Shown here one piece after another: positions 2,904 through 39,922 of a DNA stretch of 39,922 nucleotides; the first letter of the stretch is position 1, and every line of letters starts with the position of its first letter. This DNA is from an uncultured Clostridia bacterium. GTDB lineage: Bacteria; Bacillota; Clostridia; Christensenellales; Aristaeellaceae. A model generated the notes under the pieces. It was not told the origin of the DNA. It saw only the letters and a list, made by a program, of their open reading frames with translations, and did no database searches. The position numbers and the translations under genes are program-made. Location of the stretch: the NCBI GenBank assembly GCA_947166705.1, contig CAMVFE010000020.1, positions 1 through 39,922 of the forward strand, given 5' to 3'.

Positions 2904-3014
2904 GGCGGGCGGATCCCGCCTGGCCGGGCTTGTAATGGATATTAAGTTTAGCCGCACGGGGAGCGGGTGGGCGCCCCGTGGCGGGAGGGAGAGGGGGCGG
3001 CCCCTCTCCCTCCC
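2904..3014. other. Cluster of three hairpins upstream of rep: candidate replication origin
   Basis: Three inverted repeats follow each other. GGCGGG/CCCGCC with a 5-base loop lies at 2904-2920. CACGGGG/CCCCGTG with a 12-base loop lies at 2955-2980. GGGAGGGAGAGGGG with its perfect complement lies at 2983-3014, a 14-bp stem and 4-base loop (GCGG). HUH initiators nick a single-stranded loop or a site next to a hairpin, often beside their own gene, so this cluster is a candidate double-strand origin. The last stem is 20 bases before the rep ribosome site and could instead control rep mRNA. Which site is nicked cannot be read from sequence alone. Confidence 0.5.
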
Positions 3015-3049
3015 TGGAACGTACTGTGCGGAGAAAGGAGCGCCGGGCA

Positions 3050-3886
3050 GTGAAGACGGACCTGGAAGAGGTATTCGAGATCGAGAGCGGGCATGGCGCT
3101 ACCGAGGCGCTGCTGCGGCATAACCGGGTGCTTTGCTACAAAACCCGGACGATCCGCTGCGGGGAGCACGTGACCGAGGTGGAGTGCTACCCGGTATACT
3201 CCAGGGCATACCCGGACGCGGAGCGAATGAAGGAGCGGATCCGGAGCACCAGGGCACAGCAGAAGCTGAACGACAAACGGGCGGAGAACCATTTCCGGAG
3301 GAAGGCGGAGGCGAATTTCGGGCCCAGTGACTATTTTTTAACCCTGACCTACGCAGGGACGGCGCCGGACATGGAGCAGGCGCGGAAGGATTTCAGGAAT
3401 TTCATCGCGCGGGTGAATCGGTACCGGAAGAAGAAGGGCCTGTCACCGGCCCGGTACATGGCGGTATTGGAGGCCGGGAACCGGAACGGGCGGGCCCATC
3501 ATCACGTGCTGATCGACGGCGCCATGACCCGGGAAGAGTACGAAAAAATCTGGCAAAAGGGATTTGCCAACTGCGACCGGCTGCAGCTGGCCAATAACGG
3601 CCTGCTGGCCGTATGCAAATATATGCTCAAGGCCGCCGGATCGGAGGCCAGGGCGAAGGACCAGAAGCGGTGGAGCTGCTCGCGAAACCTGCGGGAGCCG
3701 AGGATCACGGAGAGCGTGCACCGGATCACCAAGCGCAAGGCAGCACGGATCGCCGAGGACGCGGAGCTGCAGGGGGAGGAGATCTTCCGGCGGCTGTATC
3801 CAGGCTGGCAGCTGCAGGATCTGACGGTGCGGCGGTCGGACTATATCGCGGGGGCCTATATTTTCGGGAGGCTGACGCATGTCTAA
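3050..3886 (+). CDS. HUH-type rolling-circle replication initiator (Rep)
   Basis: I choose GTG 3050 (278 residues) because AAAGGAG at 3034-3040 is well spaced; the longer frame from 2978 would read through the hairpin. Motif 1 is FLTLTY at residues 96-101. Motif 2, the metal-binding HUH, is HHH at 150-152 within RAHHHVLIDG. Motif 3 is KYMLK, with the likely nicking Tyr191 and Lys194. This motif order and spacing match rolling-circle replication-associated proteins of plasmids and microvirus-like phages. The enzyme would nick one strand, stay bound through a 5'-phosphotyrosine, and restart DNA synthesis. A single catalytic Tyr is seen, unlike the two-Tyr P2 gpA type. The adjacent hairpins fit an origin. 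Confidence 0.8.
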   Translation: MKTDLEEVFEIESGHGATEALLRHNRVLCYKTRTIRCGEHVTEVECYPVYSRAYPDAERMKERIRSTRAQQKLNDKRAENHFRRKAEANFGPSDYFLTLTYAGTAPDMEQARKDFRNFIARVNRYRKKKGLSPARYMAVLEAGNRNGRAHHHVLIDGAMTREEYEKIWQKGFANCDRLQLANNGLLAVCKYMLKAAGSEARAKDQKRWSCSRNLREPRITESVHRITKRKAARIAEDAELQGEEIFRRLYPGWQLQDLTVRRSDYIAGAYIFGRLTHV

Positions 3887-4210: not shown

Positions 4211-4690
4211 GTGGCGTATGACTGGGACAGGATAGAGCATGAGTATGTGACCGGCAAGGGGACGATGGAGGCCCTGGCGAGGAAGTACGGAATCAAACTG
4301 AGCAGTTTTTACAGGCGTGCAGAGGTACGGAAATTCGCCGAGAAGCGCGAAAAGTATGCGAATCAGGTGCGAGAAAAAGCCCTCACACGCGCGCGTGAGC
4401 GGGAGATCCGGACGCTGACGAACCTGGGCAGCGCCCTGGATAAGGCGGCCAAGAAGCTCAATAACTACATCGCGGACGAGGACACGCTGCACGGGAAAGT
4501 GGTCAACCACATGGATGGCAGCATCGAGGAGATCCGGACGAAAAAGCTGGACACCAAGGCCGTCCGGGACCTGACGGCGGCGATGAAGGAAGTGGCCGCG
4601 GCGCTGAAATTGATCACGCCGGACGAGACGAAGACAGAGGAAACCCAGGCAGGCGTCATCGTCCTGGCGCAGCGGGAGGACGAGACATGA
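4211..4690 (+). CDS. Terminase small subunit
   Basis: A 159-residue product starting at GTG 4211. Residues about 8-40 form an HTH-like DNA-binding head (VTGKGTMEALARKYGIKLSS, then FYRRAEVRKF) typical of small terminase subunits. The middle is a charged helical stretch (EKALTRAREREIR) and the C-terminal part is a further helix pair with TKAVRDLTAAMKEVAAALKL. Small terminases form rings that pick the packaging start on viral DNA and stimulate the large subunit. Identity rests on the HTH plus position: the stop overlaps the ATG of the large subunit (ATGA). Confidence 0.8.
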   Translation: MAYDWDRIEHEYVTGKGTMEALARKYGIKLSSFYRRAEVRKFAEKREKYANQVREKALTRAREREIRTLTNLGSALDKAAKKLNNYIADEDTLHGKVVNHMDGSIEEIRTKKLDTKAVRDLTAAMKEVAAALKLITPDETKTEETQAGVIVLAQREDET

Positions 4691-6135
4691 CCCGGACGGT
4701 ATGGAAACCGCAGCCGAAGCAGGCGGCGTTCATGGCGCGGACCGAGGACGAGGTATTTTTCGGGGGCGCGGCCGGCGGCGGAAAGTCGGACGCCATCGTG
4801 ATCGAGGCACTGCGGCAGGTGCATGTACCGAACTACCGGGGGCTGATCCTGCGGAAGACCTACAAGAATCTGACCGAGCTGATCGACAAGAGCCAGTATT
4901 ATTACCCGCAGGCGTTTCCAAAAGCGCGGTACAACGGGACAATGCATGAATGGCGGTTCCCGAGCGGGGCGAAGATCAGGTTCGGGAACGTCCGGGACAC
5001 CACCTACAAAATCGATTACCAGGGCATGCAGTATGACTATATCGGATTCGATGAGCTGACGCACTTCACATTTGACCAGTACAGCTACATCAGCGGGCGC
5101 AACCGTCCCAGCGGGCCGGGGACGAAATGCTACGTTCGCGCCACCGGGAACCCGGGCGGCATCGGGCACGGATGGGTCAAGGACCGGTTCGTCACCAGGG
5201 CAGAGCCATTGACCACATTCCGGAACGAGCTGGAGGTGGAGCTGCCGGACGGCAGCAGGAAAAAGCTGGTGAAGACCGGGTGCTTTGTGCCCAGCATGGT
5301 GTTTGACAATAAGTATCTGCTGGAGAATGACCCGAACTATCTGGCGCAGCTGGCGTCCCTGCCAGAGGCAGAGAAGCGGGCTATGCTGTACGGGGACTGG
5401 AATTCCTTCAGCGGCCAGGTGTTCCGGGAATTCCGGGATCTGCCGCAGCACTACAAGGACAGGGAATGGACGCACGTGATCGAGCCGTTCCCGATCCCGA
5501 AGCACTGGCAGATCATCCGGAGCTTTGACTGGGGCTTTCATCATCCGTTCAGCGTGGGGTGGTGGGCCGTGGACGAGACAGGGTGCATGTACCGCATCCG
5601 GGAGCTGTACGGCTGCGTGCCGGGGAGCCCGAACACCGGCGTGGAATGGCCGGACCAGAAGATCGCGCGGGAGATCCTGCGTATCGAGAGCGAGGACCCG
5701 AACATCGTTGGGCACCAGATCACCGGGATCGCGGACCCGGCCATCGGGCTGGATAAAGACACCGGCTACGGGGCGGCGGCGAACATGGCCCAGGAGGGTG
5801 TGTACTTCCAGAAGGCAATGAACAGCAGGATCAAGGGCAAGATGCAGTTTCACTACCGGCTGGCCTTTAATTCCGAGGGGCACCCGATGATGCAGGTGTT
5901 CAAAACCTGCGTGAACTTTATCCGGCAGATCCCGGCGCTGGTGTACTCCGAGATCGACGTGGAGGATATCGACACAAAGCAGGAGGACCATATCTACGAC
6001 GAGGCGCGGTACGCCATCTGCAGCAGGATGATCAGCGCGCCGAGGAAAGACCCGGAGGAGATCCGGTATTCGGAGCCGGACGATCCGCTGAACATGATCA
6101 GGGACAAGGACAGGACGAAATATCTGAGCTATTGA
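4687..6135 (+). CDS. terL: Terminase large subunit (packaging ATPase and nuclease)
   Basis: A 482-residue product starting at ATG 4687. The ATPase half has a Walker A loop FFGGAAGGGKS with Lys33 and Ser34, and Walker B YIGFDE with Asp122 and Glu123. The RNase-H-like nuclease half shows its acidic residues in SFDWGF (Asp281), IADPAIG (Asp350) and DEARYAI (Asp438). Length and motif order fit a full-length large terminase of the Terminase_6/Terminase_3 type. It pumps DNA into the prohead through the portal and cuts it. Headful packaging would agree with a circularly permuted contig, but that is inference. Confidence 0.95.
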   Translation: MTRTVWKPQPKQAAFMARTEDEVFFGGAAGGGKSDAIVIEALRQVHVPNYRGLILRKTYKNLTELIDKSQYYYPQAFPKARYNGTMHEWRFPSGAKIRFGNVRDTTYKIDYQGMQYDYIGFDELTHFTFDQYSYISGRNRPSGPGTKCYVRATGNPGGIGHGWVKDRFVTRAEPLTTFRNELEVELPDGSRKKLVKTGCFVPSMVFDNKYLLENDPNYLAQLASLPEAEKRAMLYGDWNSFSGQVFREFRDLPQHYKDREWTHVIEPFPIPKHWQIIRSFDWGFHHPFSVGWWAVDETGCMYRIRELYGCVPGSPNTGVEWPDQKIAREILRIESEDPNIVGHQITGIADPAIGLDKDTGYGAAANMAQEGVYFQKAMNSRIKGKMQFHYRLAFNSEGHPMMQVFKTCVNFIRQIPALVYSEIDVEDIDTKQEDHIYDEARYAICSRMISAPRKDPEEIRYSEPDDPLNMIRDKDRTKYLSY

Positions 6136-6148
6136 GAGGAGCGGGAGA

Positions 6149-8224
6149 ATGAGCGAATTCTGGCGTAGAAACAGGAACGAAGATACGGCGGCGGGGAATG
6201 TGATGCCTGTTGAAAACCTCATCCGGCCATCCGGGCCACGTCTCCAAAAGGGGACGGCCTTTGGGCGTACGGCTGCTGGAGGGGCCGGGATTCCGGGCAG
6301 CGCGCATGCCGTGAACAATGGGCCGGGGGCGCAGGTGGTGCAGACGCCGGGGAGCCAGGCGGACGGGGCCGGGCGGACGGTGCGGAAACGTACCTGGGAG
6401 GAGCGGATCAGCGAGGCGCTGGAGGTGCTGCAGGAGTACAAGGCGGGCAAAGCCAGCCTGGAGCAGCGCGTGATCGAGGCGGAGCGGTACTACCGGCAGC
6501 ACAACTGGGGCCAGAAGCGCAACGACTTCAAGCGCTACGGCGCGAGAAGCAACAGCGCTTGGCTGTTCAACAGCTGCATGATCAAACATTCCGACGCCAT
6601 GGACAATTACCCGGAAGCCAACGTGCTGCCGCGGGAGGATGGGGACAGCGAGGCGGCGAAAGCGCTGTCCGAGGTAATCCCAACCGTGCTGGAGCTGAAC
6701 GACTACGAGGAGATTTATGACCGGGCCTGGTGGGACAAGATCGTCAAGGGGACGGCGGTGTACTGCGTCACCTGGGACCAGGACAAGAGCAACGGCATCG
6801 GGGACGTGAGCATCAACCGGGTGGACATCCTCAACGTATACTGGGATCCGTCCGTGGCCGACATCCAGCAGAGCAGGGACTTTTTCTGCGTCGCACTGAT
6901 CGACAACAAGCAGCTGGAGGAGGACTACGGCGACCTGGTCAAAGACAAGCTGGGCAGCGCGACGTTCGTGCCGGGGCAGTACGCCTATGAGACCACCCAC
7001 AACACGGCAGGAAAGTCCGCCGTGATCGACTGGTACTACAAGCGGGGCGGCGTGCTTCACCTGTGCAAGTTCGTGGAGAACATCGTGCTCTACGCGTCAG
7101 AGGACGACGAGCGGTACGCGGAGCGCGGATACTACGACCATGGCTTGTATCCGTTCGTGTTCGATGCCTATTACCCGATGGAGGGATCCCCCGCGGGGTT
7201 CGGCCAGGTGGATCTGTGCCGGGATGCGCAGGACTATATTGACCGGCTGGACAGCGCGATCCTGGACAGCGCGATGATCAACGCGCGGCCCAAACACTTT
7301 ATTAATAACGCGGGCGGCGTCAACGAAAAGGAGGCGCTGGACCCGGAAGCGCCTTTTGTCCACGTCAACGGCAGCGGCGCGGTGGGGGACAGCGTGTACC
7401 CGTATCCCAAGAGTGAGCTCAACGCCCTGTACGTAAACGTACTGAACAACAAAATCTCGGAGCTGCGGGAGACGTCCGGCAGCACGGCGGCGGCCCAGGG
7501 CGGCGTCGCCGCGGGCGTGACGGCGTACAGCGCCATCGCGGCCATGCAGGAGGCGGCCAGCAAGCCGTCCCGCGACCTGATCCGGGCCGGGTACCGGAAA
7601 TTCCGGGACGTGTGCTACATGATGATCGAACTGTTCCGGCAGTTTTACGATGTGCCCCGCACGATCCGGATCACCGGCGAGGGCGCCATGGGCGGGGACC
7701 AGTATATGCAGTTTGATAACAGCATGCTGGGGCCGCAGATGCAGCCGGGGATCACCGGGGTGGATTTTTCCGAGCGTCTCCCGATCTTTGATATCAAGGT
7801 CAAGGCCGCGAAACAAACGGCGTACAGCCGCATGGCCCAGAACGAGCTGGCAAAGGAATTGTACGGCGCAGGCCTGTTCGCCCCGCAGAACGCAGACAGC
7901 GCCGTCATGGTGCTGGAGATGATGAGCTTTGAAGGCAAGGACAAGATCGTGGAGAAGGTGAAGCAGAACGGCACCCTGTTCCAGATGGTGCAGCAGCTGA
8001 TGATGCAGGTGCAGCAGCTGAGCGCGGCGCTGGGGGCCGTCACCGGGATGCCCGTGGGCGGCGCGCCGGCTGGAGGACCGGCCGGGCCGCAGCCGCCGGC
8101 TGGGGAGATCAAGCCGAACAGCGAGCCCAAGCAGGACAGCCTGGGGAAAGAGCAGCAGAGCGGCACCAGAATTCAAAAACCCCGTGAGCGGGCGCTGAAC
8201 GCCAATTCCGTGGAGGGCGAATAA
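6149..8224 (+). CDS. Portal protein, P22-like
   Basis: A 691-residue product starting at ATG 6149 behind GAGAGGAGCGG. It is the dodecameric ring at the capsid vertex through which DNA passes. The family fit comes from length, position after terL, and segments such as RTWEERISEALEVLQEYKAG, a WWDKIVKGTAV stretch, VDILNVYWDP and the AAGVTAYSAIAAMQEAASKP helix. The last is the long helix of podoviral portals, followed by the SRDLIRAGYRKF segment. The C terminus is Gln-rich and helical, then Gly/Pro-rich (GGAPAGGPAGPQPPAG). Residues 1-75 are an extra Gly/Pro-rich N-terminal segment before the homologous part. A later start is possible but no good ribosome site was seen for one. Confidence 0.85.
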   Translation: MSEFWRRNRNEDTAAGNVMPVENLIRPSGPRLQKGTAFGRTAAGGAGIPGSAHAVNNGPGAQVVQTPGSQADGAGRTVRKRTWEERISEALEVLQEYKAGKASLEQRVIEAERYYRQHNWGQKRNDFKRYGARSNSAWLFNSCMIKHSDAMDNYPEANVLPREDGDSEAAKALSEVIPTVLELNDYEEIYDRAWWDKIVKGTAVYCVTWDQDKSNGIGDVSINRVDILNVYWDPSVADIQQSRDFFCVALIDNKQLEEDYGDLVKDKLGSATFVPGQYAYETTHNTAGKSAVIDWYYKRGGVLHLCKFVENIVLYASEDDERYAERGYYDHGLYPFVFDAYYPMEGSPAGFGQVDLCRDAQDYIDRLDSAILDSAMINARPKHFINNAGGVNEKEALDPEAPFVHVNGSGAVGDSVYPYPKSELNALYVNVLNNKISELRETSGSTAAAQGGVAAGVTAYSAIAAMQEAASKPSRDLIRAGYRKFRDVCYMMIELFRQFYDVPRTIRITGEGAMGGDQYMQFDNSMLGPQMQPGITGVDFSERLPIFDIKVKAAKQTAYSRMAQNELAKELYGAGLFAPQNADSAVMVLEMMSFEGKDKIVEKVKQNGTLFQMVQQLMMQVQQLSAALGAVTGMPVGGAPAGGPAGPQPPAGEIKPNSEPKQDSLGKEQQSGTRIQKPRERALNANSVEGE

Positions 8225-8225
8225 C

Positions 8226-8519
8226 ATGATCACCGTACTGATTGAGCAGGACGGCCTGGAGCACCGCGTCACCGTGGCCGGGCACGCCGGGTACGCGGAA
8301 AAGGGGCAGGACATCGTGTGCGCGGGCGTTTCCTCCCTGTTCGTGGCGCTGTGCGAGGCGGCGGATCGGGAGGGCGCCCTGCGCGATCTCCTGACCGAGC
8401 CGGACGCAAAGCGCGCGTATATCTACCGGACGAAGCCGGCAGGGCATTACCTCACCATGTTCCGGGCGGGGATCCTGGCCATGCAGCGGGAGTATCCGGA
8501 GTATGTGCGGCTCGAATAG
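8226..8519 (+). CDS. prp: Prp-type cysteine protease, probable prohead maturation protease
   Basis: A 97-residue product starting at ATG 8226, two bases after the portal stop. The signature GHAGYAEKGQDIVCAG at residues about 19-34 contains the catalytic His and Cys of the Prp family. That is the ribosomal-protein L27-processing protease of Firmicutes. Overall length and the following VSSLFVALCEAAD helix also match. In Staphylococcus the host Prp is known to remove N-terminal peptides from L27 and from phage 80-alpha capsid and scaffold proteins. Here the gene stands between portal and scaffold, exactly where tailed phages keep their prohead protease, and both downstream proteins carry an LQMF motif near their N terminus. 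No other maturation protease is visible. Confidence 0.85.
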   Translation: MITVLIEQDGLEHRVTVAGHAGYAEKGQDIVCAGVSSLFVALCEAADREGALRDLLTEPDAKRAYIYRTKPAGHYLTMFRAGILAMQREYPEYVRLE

Positions 8520-8552
8520 CCCGGGGAGAAATACAAAAAATATTTTGCTATC

Positions 8553-8585
8553 ATGGATCCAGGCGAGAGCCGGATCCATTTTTTT
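8553..8585 (+). terminator. Terminator-like hairpin between prp and scaffold
   Basis: ATGGATCC (8553-8560), an 11-base loop, GGATCCAT (8572-8579), then TTTTTT. It sits inside the virion operon, so it may act as an attenuator or processing site that sets capsid gene expression apart from the packaging genes. Confidence 0.7.
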
Positions 8586-8616
8586 GACAAGCCGGAGAGA
8601 CGGCGGAGGTGCACAG

Positions 8617-9615
8617 ATGAGCGGAATCATGTTTGCCGATTACCTGCAGATGTTCGCGGACGGCGGCGCCGGCGGAGACGGCGGCGGGGCGACCGGGACG
8701 GCAGGAGAGGCGGGCGCCGCAGCTCAGGCGCAGGGCGCGGGAGCGCAGACCAACAAGGCGGCCGGGAAACCGGAGAACCTCAACGACGTGGTGTACGGCA
8801 GGCAGGCAGCGGATGGTATCCAGGATGGCGTCAAGGACGCCGCCCAGAACGACGCCGGGAAACAGGCGGAGCAAAATCGAACCAACCAGCCGCAGCAGCA
8901 GGCCAAAAAGCCGAGCTTTGATGAGCTGCTCCAGGACCCGGACTACAAAAAAGAGTTTCAGCAGCGATTTGACAAGCAGTTCAACCGTCGGTTCGCCGAG
9001 AACAAGCAGCAGCAGGAGAACTGGAAGGAACTGGCGCCGGCGCTCAATCTGCTGGCGGGGAAGTACGGAACGGAACCGGGCGACCTCAAGGGACTGATCA
9101 GCGCGATCAACGAGGACAACGACCTGATCGAGCGCCAGGCCTACGACAAGGGCATGGAGCCGGACGCGTACCGGGAGTATAACCGGATGCTGGCCGAGAA
9201 CCAGGCGCTCAAAGAGGCCGAGGCCCAGCGCCAGCGCCAGGCGAAGGTGGACAGCCAGTACAATGCCTGGCTGCAGCAGGCGGAGCAGGCACGGGCGATC
9301 TACCCGAATCTTAACCTGCAGCAGGAGGTCAAGAACCCGCAGTTCGCGCAGCTGCTGGGCGCGGGCATCGATGTGGGCACCGCCTATCAGGTCGTGCACA
9401 TGAACGAGCTTTCCACCCAGCTGGTGCAGCGGGCGGCCGCGGATGGGAAAGCCTCCGCGGTGAGGGCGATCCAGGCCAACAGCGGCCGGCCCAGGGAAAA
9501 CGGGAGCGCGCCGCAGAAGGCCGCGACCGTAAAGAGCGACGCTGCGAAACTCAAAGCACGCGACTTTGACGAGATCATCAGACGAGCGGCGAGAGGAGAC
9601 AGCATCAGATTCTGA
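8617..9615 (+). CDS. Capsid scaffolding protein
   Basis: Start chosen at ATG 8617 because GGAGGT lies at 8604-8609; upstream sequence belongs to a terminator. The 332-residue product is highly charged, Gln/Ala-rich and mostly helical, with a Gly/Ala-rich N-terminal linker (residues about 16-45). It has central coiled-coil segments such as KKEFQQRFDKQFNRRFAENK and a positively charged C-terminal region (RPRENGS, KSDAAKLKARDFDEIIRRAA). Scaffolds of tailed phages have this composition and lie directly before the coat gene. The N terminus MSGIMFADYLQMFADGG contains LQMF followed by Ala at residue 14, a likely Prp cleavage site shared with the coat protein. Confidence 0.8.
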   Translation: MSGIMFADYLQMFADGGAGGDGGGATGTAGEAGAAAQAQGAGAQTNKAAGKPENLNDVVYGRQAADGIQDGVKDAAQNDAGKQAEQNRTNQPQQQAKKPSFDELLQDPDYKKEFQQRFDKQFNRRFAENKQQQENWKELAPALNLLAGKYGTEPGDLKGLISAINEDNDLIERQAYDKGMEPDAYREYNRMLAENQALKEAEAQRQRQAKVDSQYNAWLQQAEQARAIYPNLNLQQEVKNPQFAQLLGAGIDVGTAYQVVHMNELSTQLVQRAAADGKASAVRAIQANSGRPRENGSAPQKAATVKSDAAKLKARDFDEIIRRAARGDSIRF

Positions 9616-9640
9616 TCCTCTCACCGGAGAGGAGAAAACC

Positions 9641-10687
9641 ATGGAAATCATTTTCAAGAAATTCCTGCAGATGTTCGGCACCGTCAACGGCAATATCGGC
9701 GCGGACGGCCCGCTGAACGTCACCACCGACACCGGCATGACGCCGGAGATGAAAACGTTTTACAAGACGGAGCTCCTGCAGTTCGCGGAACCGGAGCTGC
9801 TCTTTGAGCGATTCGGCAAAAAGGTGCCGATCCCGCAGCACAACGGCAACAGCGTGGAGATCCGCTACATGGATCCGCTGCCCGTGACCACCACCGACCT
9901 GACCGAGGGCGTGACGCCGGCCGGCAACCTGGTGACGTTCCACGCGATCAACGAGAGCCTGCACCAGATCGGCTACTGGGTGGGCTACAGCGACAAGTTG
10001 CAGTGGGAGACCGTGGACCCGGTCATCGCCGAGATCACCAAGGCCGAGGGCCGGCAGGCGGGCAAATCCATCGACACCCTGGTGCGCGACGTGGTCAGCG
10101 CCGGCAGCAACGTGCTGTACGCGCCCAACTATGCCGCCGGCGCCTACACCGAAAACACCGCCCGCGGCACCATGGACGGAACCGCCATGCTGACCATTGA
10201 CCTGCTGTTCCAGGCGGCGGCCATCCTGCAGGGCCAGGACGCCCCGCCCATCGACGGGGAGTATGTGGCCATCGTGCACCCTTATGTGGCGTGCGACCTC
10301 AAAAAGAGCACCGCGTGGCAGGACCTGCAGCGCTACGTGCATCCGGAGAAAATCTACAAGGGCGAGATCGGCAGCGTGGGCAACATCCGTGTAATCGAAA
10401 ACACGAGGGCGAAAATTGTCGCTGGCGCGGGCGCGACCATCAGCGGCAGCGACAAGTACTCCATTTACTGCACCATGGTGCTGGGCGCGGACGCCTACGC
10501 CGTGAGCGAGCTGGAGGGCGCCGGGCTTGAGCATATCGTCAAGCCCCTGGGCAGCGGCGACGACCCCCTGAACCAGCGCGGGACCATCGGCTGGAAAGCC
10601 ATGCGTCTGGCCAAGCGGCTGATCGAGCAGTACATGGTGCGCATCGAGACCACCTCTGCCACCATGCCCAAGGCGGCCGCGAACTAA
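9641..10687 (+). CDS. Major capsid protein, N4-gp56-like
   Basis: Start at ATG 9641 behind GAGAGGAG; 348 residues. Segments FGKKVPIPQHNGNSVEIRYM, LTEGVTPAG, and the helix ITKAEGRQAGKSIDTLVRDV fit the N4-gp56 family of HK97-fold coat proteins. The C-terminal part shows a P-domain-like stretch with EHIVKPLGSGDDPLNQRG and GWKAMRLAKRLIEQYM. It builds the icosahedral shell. The N terminus MEIIFKKFLQMFGTVNG carries the same LQMF motif as the scaffold, so removal of about 12 residues by the phage Prp is predicted. The coding region lies between two intergenic hairpins. Confidence 0.85.
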   Translation: MEIIFKKFLQMFGTVNGNIGADGPLNVTTDTGMTPEMKTFYKTELLQFAEPELLFERFGKKVPIPQHNGNSVEIRYMDPLPVTTTDLTEGVTPAGNLVTFHAINESLHQIGYWVGYSDKLQWETVDPVIAEITKAEGRQAGKSIDTLVRDVVSAGSNVLYAPNYAAGAYTENTARGTMDGTAMLTIDLLFQAAAILQGQDAPPIDGEYVAIVHPYVACDLKKSTAWQDLQRYVHPEKIYKGEIGSVGNIRVIENTRAKIVAGAGATISGSDKYSIYCTMVLGADAYAVSELEGAGLEHIVKPLGSGDDPLNQRGTIGWKAMRLAKRLIEQYMVRIETTSATMPKAAAN

Positions 10688-39583: not shown

Positions 39584-39922
39584 TGGGTGTGCCGAAGGTG
39601 TACCTGACGGCGGAGCAGCGGGCGGCGGAGCGCTGGCGGAATGAGGATAAGGAGATCCGGGGACGGATCGGGGCGTATCTGGCAGTGACCGGGCGGAACG
39701 TCGGGCAGCTGGCGCTCCGGATCGGGATGACCCAGGCGACCATGTACAGACGGATGAAGGCGCCGGGGACGTTCCGGCTGGACGAGTACCGGCGGCTGAT
39801 GGACGAGAGGGCGGCGGAGCGCTGGCGGAATGAGGATAAGGAGATCCGGGGACGGATCGGGGCGTATCTGGCAGTGACCGGGCGGAACGTCGGGCAGCTG
39901 GCGCTCCGGATCGGGATGACCC
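39583..39922 (+). CDS. Tandem helix-turn-helix regulator, N-terminal part (gene continues at base 1)
   Basis: ATG 39583 overlaps the previous TGA by one base. The reading frame stays open to the contig end and continues at base 56 to the stop at 154-156, giving 146 residues on the circular map. After a short head (MGVPKVYLTAEQR) there are two copies of a 63-residue unit that begins AAERWRNEDKEIRGRIGAYL and contains an HTH (VGQLALRIGMT...TMYRRM). The units differ in only two residues, both at the start of the recognition helix (TQAT in copy 1, TRET in copy 2). Two HTH heads on one chain would let a monomer bind two adjacent half-sites. Confidence 0.7.
   Translation, partial: MGVPKVYLTAEQRAAERWRNEDKEIRGRIGAYLAVTGRNVGQLALRIGMTQATMYRRMKAPGTFRLDEYRRLMDERAAERWRNEDKEIRGRIGAYLAVTGRNVGQLALRIGMT
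39620..39922 (+). repeat. 189-bp in-frame tandem duplication
   Basis: Copy 1 spans 39620-39808. Copy 2 starts at 39809, runs to the contig end and continues to about base 130. The period is exactly 63 codons. Within the copies I find three base differences, in the recognition-helix region and a following Ala codon. Confidence 0.8.
39868..39922. repeat. Terminal direct repeat (circular overlap), right copy
   Basis: Identical to bases 1-55; see the left copy. Confidence 0.85.

Follow-up and report, generated by a model that had tools for sequence, protein, structure and literature searches.

A phage carried by a 39,922-nucleotide stretch of DNA (the window, meaning the whole stretch analysed here) very probably encodes its own prohead protease, a member of the Prp family of cysteine proteases, whose gene lies in the head cluster beside the genes of the scaffold and of the major coat protein. 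The original prediction had proposed this function, and it is strongly supported by the position of the gene, by predicted cleavage sites on two head proteins, by the co-evolution of enzyme and site in related loci, by fusions of Prp with the scaffold and by the precedent of Streptococcus phage Cp-1. As judged from its genes, the phage has a P22-like portal and a coat protein of the Phage_capsid_3 family. The features that carry the argument are the following (aa, amino acids; a slash marks the predicted cut, P1 and P3 being the first and third residues before it and P1' the first after it):

8226..8519, plus strand (ATG 8226, stop ends 8519): prp, Prp-family cysteine protease, 97 aa; PF04327 E=2e-15; phrog_4478 'peptidase'
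8617..9615, plus strand (ATG 8617): scaffold gene, 332 aa; phrog_13908; GGAGG Shine-Dalgarno; N-terminus MSGIMFADYLQMF/ADGG
8644..8658, plus strand: predicted Prp site on the scaffold, LQMF/A, cut after residue 13, from S. aureus Prp specificity
9641..10687, plus strand (ATG 9641): major coat protein gene, 348 aa; Phage_capsid_3 / phrog_1357; N-terminus MEIIFKKFLQMF/GTV
9665..9679, plus strand: predicted Prp site on the coat, LQMF/G, cut after residue 12 (cut position inferred)

The prp gene and its predicted sites in the window

The Prp-family gene that the original prediction had placed between portal and scaffold was confirmed at 8226-8519. Its product scores 57.2 bits against PF04327, above the curated cut-off of 27, as a member of the Prp (MEROPS C108) family does, and residues G19, H20, G27, D29, C32 and S36 align with G21, H22, G29, D31, C34 and S38 of S. 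aureus Prp. In the S. aureus enzyme His22 and Cys34 form the catalytic dyad, mutations at G21, D31 and S38 abolish activity, and G29 is the presumed hinge of loop L2 (PMC9405229); in the 7KLD structure the P3 Gln of the substrate bonds Gly29 and Asp31 of this loop (PMC9405229 section 3.4). A profile made from the window Prp and 24 relatives found S. aureus Prp first in the PDB (4peo/7kld, E=2e-17), followed by 7jvs, 2g0i, 2idl and 1s12. Among 201 related loci the catalytic Cys was kept in 173/173 Prp domains and the His in 172/173, the lone exception being a partial domain. The structure model of a relative with a short L2 (locus L007, Prp 59% identical to that of the window) reached a predicted local distance difference test (pLDDT) score of 95.8, with the order of elements E E H E E H E.

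The position of the gene, between portal and scaffold and not between rplU and rpmA, is that of a head-cluster gene and not that of a ribosomal L27-processing Prp, and predicted sites lie on both of the adjoining head proteins. Since the window phage encodes its own Prp, it also differs from phage 80alpha, whose coat (gp47) and scaffold (gp46) are cut by the Prp of its host S. aureus (PMC5744158; PMC9405229). The name scaffold is given from position and relatives, as the function of phrog_13908 is unknown in PHROGs.

Both N-terminal motifs were found as originally described, LQMF before Ala after scaffold residue 13 and LQMF before Gly after coat residue 12, and the claim that no other N terminus in the window has the motif held as well: LQMF followed by a small residue occurs at these two places only, among the stop-to-stop frames of at least 60 aa. 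A looser pattern, [LIVMF]Q[LMFWYHIVTRQ]F[AGSTDN], matched three further window frames, all on the minus strand, at residues 39, 124 and 297. In related loci, [LIMVF]Q-x-F followed by a small residue within the first 35 residues was present in 2/402 other plus-strand genes, taken as a control; among 127 dereplicated loci, the Gln motif was present in 77/83 coats and 73/83 scaffolds of loci with a canonical L2 (defined below), against 3/437 of their other genes. Gene calls for these controls were crude (ATG plus Shine-Dalgarno), and the loosest pattern of the site caller is common in other genes (88/437 and 42/235), so that only the tighter patterns count as evidence for a site. A chance motif was ruled out by the controls. 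As the search pattern itself required Phe at P1, this residue is no evidence for a scissile site.

Loop L2 and site residues in related loci

Relatives were collected in several ways. The window coat gave 59 viral contigs; a Prp alignment gave 356 loci, of which the best 80 were taken (one already in the set), and a coat alignment 561, of which the best 80 were taken (many already in the set). One scan of bacterial contigs added the best 80 of 173 loci, the source of a held-out set. Where upstream sequence is available, a distance of about 1.0-1.7 kb usually separates Prp from the coat core downstream of it (L058 and L150 have 3.1 kb), and most of these relatives have Prp at the same place as the window. 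Thirteen coat relatives with at least 4 kb upstream had no Prp detected within 3.5 kb. Left out of the counts were loci in which no Prp was detected within 3.5 kb, loci lacking a coat start or having a coat core below 200 aa, the partial Prp of L187, and redundant copies (same L2, coat cores more than 95% identical). Of the two site callers, the first favours the Gln motif when several motifs are present, and the second, which is neutral, was used for the Fisher tests; its scaffold picks in L034, L253 and L256 and its scaffold start in L259 look wrong and were kept in the counts.

The canonical L2, lying between the catalytic His and the Cys, has 11 residues with an Asp three before the Cys, and was present in 83/127 dereplicated loci. 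The other 44 have a variant L2 of 5-8, 10 or 12-14 residues, and 33 of these 44 lack that Asp. Canonical loops pair with LQxF or IQxF before Ala, whereas variant loops pair with LTLF, LNLF, LDLF, LRLF or IDLF before Asp, Gly, Asn or Glu, on coat and scaffold alike. In the viral set (77 dereplicated loci) the coat site had Gln at P3 in 49/49 readable loci with a canonical L2 (one unreadable) and in 1/27 with a variant L2 (Fisher p=2e-19); for the scaffold the counts were 47/48 (two unreadable) and 1/27 (p=7e-18). The single viral exception for the coat, L183, has an 8-residue variant loop that keeps the Asp. The picture was the same in the 50 held-out bacterial loci, which had been dereplicated against the viral ones, with P3 Gln in 29/33 canonical and 1/17 variant coats (p=1.5e-8) and in 23/31 canonical and 0/14 variant scaffolds (p=2e-6; five unreadable). 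As P3 Gln bonds Gly29 and Asp31 in 7KLD, the structure would lead one to expect that Gln is lost where L2 has changed.

The residue after the cut also changes, being Ala in 77/82 coats with a canonical L2 and mostly Asp with a variant L2. The strict non-Gln motif, [LI]-notQ-[LMAF]-F-[DGNE], was present in 35 coats and 34 scaffolds of the 44 variant-L2 loci and in 1/235 of their other genes, while the 83 canonical loci had it in no coat and in 5 scaffolds. By these counts the non-Gln sites are real.

The clearest case of loop and site switching together is the clade of the window itself. Loops of 11 residues and LQxF sites are found in the window and in L008. In L007, whose coat is 98% identical to that of the window, and in L009 and L011 the loop has 6 residues, and the coat and scaffold sites read LTLF or LTMF. 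The change between the window and L007 looks like one within a single gene lineage, because the two Prps are 59% identical and a DNA alignment of 194 bases past L2 still shows 72% identity. In L009, about 600 bp (5928-6527) interrupt the coat gene relative to the window, perhaps as an intron; the matched coat frames of L061 and L063 are short as well.

Shared ancestry was addressed with coat-core trees, which exclude the N-terminus and were limited to coat cores of at least 240 aa. For the analysis of 74 viral loci, the coat picks of L049, L064, L193, L197 and L200 and the scaffold picks of L054, L193 and L197 were set by hand; L090 and L109 were left out of the analysis of 119 loci as well. 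The analysis of 74 loci gave 8 changes of the loop and 7 of the coat site; 3 independent contrasts were supported, and none reversed. That of 119 loci gave 12 loop and 13 coat-site changes, with 7 supported independent contrasts. When each coat cluster had one vote per state, the association gave p=9e-19 at 90%, 8e-13 at 80% and 7e-5 at 70% identity.

Several results weigh against a simple account of a maturation protease evolving in step with its sites. Among the 119 loci, the coat site follows the loop in 5.2 of the 7 contrasts on average, with no reversal and a median sign-test p of 0.06, and the per-cluster test gave p=0.07 at 60% and 0.23 at 55% coat identity. The association of loop and site is thus strong, with modest significance once corrected for the tree. 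The held-out set contains exceptions for the coat, which are L204, L205, L279 and L282 (canonical L2, non-Gln site) and L283 (variant L2, Gln site), and for the scaffold, including L207, L247 and L260 (non-Gln scaffold); L253 and L256 were also scored as scaffold exceptions, and their scaffolds read LQLF and VQLF as well. These exceptions ruled out a strict loop-site rule. In addition, 11/44 variant loops keep the Asp three before the Cys, and 10 of these 11 have non-Gln sites (L183 alone has Gln), which ruled out this Asp alone as the determinant; L157 has a loop of 12, no Asp and a non-Gln site. The canonical class is marked by loop length and Asp together. Finally, in 80alpha the cleavage of coat and scaffold is dispensable for viability, while an intact scaffold N-terminus is essential (PMC5744158), and therefore the step may not be essential here either.

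The same observation on 80alpha would also fit an assembly chaperone, Prp being no protease in that case and the shared N-terminal motif serving as an uncut binding tag; 'Prp as a Ribosomal Protein Chaperone' is the heading of one section of PMC9405229. We consider this extremely unlikely, as the catalytic residues are kept in nearly all of the Prp domains found and as the P1' residue differs between the two classes of loop, as it would at a scissile site. The N-terminal peptide may itself guide assembly, by analogy with 80alpha, which needs an intact scaffold N-terminus and not its cleavage.

Two further observations concern gene order in the wider family. On one viral contig (L089/L158) Prp lies about 12.5 kb from the coat, and the coat site still reads LQQF/A; L158 is one of the thirteen coat relatives counted above as having no Prp within 3.5 kb. 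The four members of the wider coat family that were examined, out of 85 records (Bacillus phage Pony, Streptomyces phage Immanuel3, Stenotrophomonas phage StenR_269 and Paenibacillus phage API480), had no adjacent Prp and no N-terminal [LI]-x-x-F on the coat; the loose caller picks ANAFT in the coat of Immanuel3. A megablast search of the L172 DNA against phages gave no match.

Prp-scaffold fusions and the Faecalibacterium element

Prp and scaffold are separate genes in the window, whereas in 23 related viral loci (21 contigs, not dereplicated) they form one open frame, with the protease and scaffold nested. The fused frames carry an LQxF joint site 12-28 residues past the Prp domain. In 13/23 the frame contains, no more than 15 residues from the site, an internal ATG preceded by a Shine-Dalgarno (e.g., ..RGEEGMIDLQLFA), and free scaffold could therefore also arise by internal initiation. 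No such ATG was seen in the other 10/23, some of which have an ATG that lacks a Shine-Dalgarno or a GTG with a weak one; there, release of the scaffold may need the cut. A protease apparently built into the scaffold at a cleavable joint would be hard to explain except as a capsid-maturation enzyme.

Fused Prps of this type were also found in Faecalibacterium, the genus of G016 (Faecalibacterium sp. I4-3-84). Among 31 genomes, 30 have Prp and 28 exactly one. Of 32 places, 30 Prp loci were read, and 25 of them have an LQxF joint after Prp, i.e., are of the fused phage type; the other five (L342, L343, L361, L364 and L366) have Prp in a separate short frame. L27 was matched in 27 genomes and readable in 24, and all 24 start MAHKK, with the ATG 9 bases after AGGAGG and no extension. 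The loci concerned are:

L304, L305 and L385-L406: Faecalibacterium L27 loci, used for the L27 reading
L370:6809-18000 and L367-L384: Faecalibacterium block, phage-like, at a shared chromosomal neighbourhood in six genomes

In these six genomes a block of terminase large subunit (TerL), portal, Prp-scaffold and coat lies within about 5-18 kb of one chromosomal neighbour common to all six, a frame of 931 aa. Ranked by coat identity to G016 (88-99%), the genomes fall in much the same order as by identity of that neighbour (79-99%), and in G042 the block reads by PHROG as TerL, portal, peptidase plus phrog_13908, coat and internal virion protein.

A gene transfer agent (GTA), FpGTA I, was reported in all twelve Faecalibacterium genomes examined in PMC12946183, and in F. 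prausnitzii ATCC 27766 its proteins are the majority of the proteins of 40-nm particles (PMC12946183). From gene order and strain accessions we infer that the Faecalibacterium block is FpGTA I; the record prefixes of strains APC923/51-1 (L227) and APC923/61-1 (L218, L263) are among the loci found. The main text of PMC12946183 names a head scaffolding gene, the word 'protease' is absent from it, and its authors could not exclude the identification of further maturation genes (section 9). FpGTA I shares with the window the order TerL, portal, Prp-scaffold and phrog_1357 coat, with a coat core about 48% identical; it differs in having Prp and scaffold in one frame and in being apparently vertically inherited. 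The fused Prp would give FpGTA a candidate maturation protease, and in this genus its substrate cannot be L27. We rejected the idea that the window itself encodes a GTA, as it appears to be a closed 40-kb phage genome with replication and lysis genes.

Host enzymes and known systems

With an exact 55-bp direct repeat at its ends (1-55 and 39868-39922), the window contig probably represents a phage genome that is closed and about 39.9 kb long, and its placement in a metagenome-assembled genome is therefore no proof of host. The sequence of the start recurs near 39679. Other genes of the window are:

4687..6135, plus strand: terminase large subunit, 482 aa; Terminase_6N E=1e-10, phrog_979
6149..8224, plus strand: portal protein, upstream neighbour of prp, 691 aa; P22_portal E=2e-29, phrog_156

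This tailed phage has a replication initiation protein at 2978-3886 (phrog_3584, E=2e-62, with a weaker match to a rolling-circle type, phrog_3419). A third of the genome (15017-27625) is taken up by a single frame of 4202 aa, of which residues 2513-2634 form an ART-PolyVal ADP-ribosyltransferase domain. Extra Prp sites in this protein were rejected, as it has two internal A-Q-x-F matches only and no LQMF.

The host with which the contig was binned has a Prp of its own next to L27, separate from that of the window, and its L27 starts MTMLKMNLQLF/AHKK. For a broader view, 26 of the 80 bacterial loci, from 25 genomes, were chosen by hand, mostly for unusual sites, and their L27 was then examined. 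All 18 genomes with a readable L27 extension have Gln at P3 and an adjacent Prp with canonical L2, and 12 of the 18 also carry an element with a variant loop and non-Gln coat sites, whose sites thus differ from the host's own. Most are metagenome bins, and L262 (Flavonifractor sp. An100) is not labelled as one. Of the remaining genomes, five have L27 without extension and one an L27 fragment, and in one L27 was not found. The twelve elements with variant loops are:

L220, L230, L232, L234, L235, L242, L243, L246, L252, L261, L262 and L270: variant-loop elements in genomes whose L27 site has Gln

The original prediction had added that the phage Prp might also cut host L27 and so act on ribosome assembly. 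We found no support for this, and consider it unlikely. Judging by sequence, the L27 of the binned host might fit as a substrate, given its LQLF/A site and the canonical, Gln-type loop of the window Prp. However, host assignment is unsure for what looks like a closed phage genome, the Prps of related phages have drifted to sites unlike that of L27 and persist where L27 has no extension, and species-specific selectivity of Prp has been reported (PMC9405229).

Conversely, the host L27-processing Prp could be the enzyme that cuts the phage proteins, as in 80alpha, leaving the phage gene redundant or otherwise employed. The host Prp adjoins L27, whose site MNLQLF/A is close to LQMF, and all 12 readable coat relatives among the 13 without a Prp (not dereplicated; the coat start of L025 was unreadable) have Gln at P3, as expected if they borrow a host Prp. 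We nevertheless regard this as very unlikely for the window phage: its gene is intact and lies at the same place in most relatives with available upstream sequence, the twelve variant-L2 elements have non-Gln sites in genomes whose L27 site has Gln, and the Prp of Faecalibacterium is of the fused phage type in 25/30 loci, with exactly one Prp in 28/31 genomes.

For a phage-encoded prohead protease, we propose the following course. Prp would be made together with the head proteins, and the P3 Gln of the scaffold and coat N-terminal peptides would close the flexible L2 through bonds to Gly27 and Asp29, in the way seen for Gly29 and Asp31 of S. aureus Prp. During procapsid assembly Prp would then cut the scaffold behind Phe13 and the coat behind Phe12. 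In related phages an L2 of other length or without the Asp goes with sites that have moved to LTLF, LNLF, LRLF or IDLF before Asp, Gly or Glu, and these joint shifts suggest that enzyme and substrate co-evolved. With its own Prp, the phage would be independent of the host enzyme that 80alpha needs.

Taken together, the data lead us to lean, by a small degree, towards a wider proposal: phage Prps would form an autonomous clan of sequence-specific cysteine prohead proteases, in which L2 and the P3 and P1' residues of scaffold and coat sites evolve as lock and key, in pairs unlike that of host L27, and one lineage, fused to the scaffold with a self-cleavable joint, would be the unrecognised maturation protease of FpGTA I and usually the only Prp of a genus that lost the L27 extension. 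In the window, the head cluster need not rely on the host enzyme borrowed by 80alpha. These loci may also offer a natural series of protease-substrate pairs, in which a contact seen in the crystal, L2 to P3 Gln, shows itself as co-evolution and through which the specificity of Prp, a proposed antibiotic target (PMC9405229), becomes testable with natural proteins.

Part of this is known, namely phage-borne Prp (Cp-1, phiFL3A) and the cutting of 80alpha capsid proteins by host Prp. A search of part of the literature found no paper on co-evolution of L2 and site, on Prp-scaffold fusion or on Prp in FpGTA; as far as that search goes, the enzyme-site co-evolution, the fusion and the GTA link are new, and parts may be in print.

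Among known systems, 80alpha resembles the window phage in its short N-terminal LQxF sites on scaffold and coat, from which 13 coat and 14 scaffold residues are removed (PMC5744158; PMC9405229), against 12 and 13 predicted for the window. No protease gene was reported for 80alpha, where the host enzyme is needed, whereas the window phage has its own Prp; the coats of the two are likened by their sites only. The protease of Cp-1 was placed in clan CR / C108, and the phage cuts 48 residues from its major head protein (PMC12445089). Like the window phage, Cp-1 carries a Prp relative, and it is a phage in which the N-terminus of its own major head protein is cut. The only Prp-like open reading frame (ORF) of Cp-1 is orf13 (L338:8805-9119; E=6.6e-6 with a profile built for this analysis, and 18.5 bits against PF04327, below the cut-off). 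We take orf13 to be the protease of Cp-1, from this homology and from general knowledge. Its L2 is short (GHGDDTDQSC), and a cut after residue 48 would read RINH/AT and not LxxF, unlike the window; a short loop with a non-Gln site appears to be in line with the loop-site pattern.

Further comparisons are Enterococcus phage phiFL3A, Lactococcus phage PLgT-1 and Dorea phage DO134P1, which like the window have in their head cluster a Prp of the canonical L2 type preceding the scaffold and coat genes, and whose presumed scaffold and coat carry L-Q-x-F sites in all three (3/3 examined of 17 matched records). In GenBank their prp genes are labelled 'ribosomal protein', labelled 'peptidase' and not annotated, respectively; scaffold and coat of DO134P1 are annotated as hypothetical and were assigned by position. 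The coats of these three phages do not match the window coat profile.

In phage lambda, C and Nu3 are nested protease and scaffold genes, the scaffold being made by internal initiation, and the fused relatives of the window phage have a similar nested arrangement. The window Prp itself occupies the same slot of the late operon as the lambda protease and other serine prohead proteases; it differs from them in being a cysteine protease of another clan, with a predicted sequence-specific, short N-terminal site.

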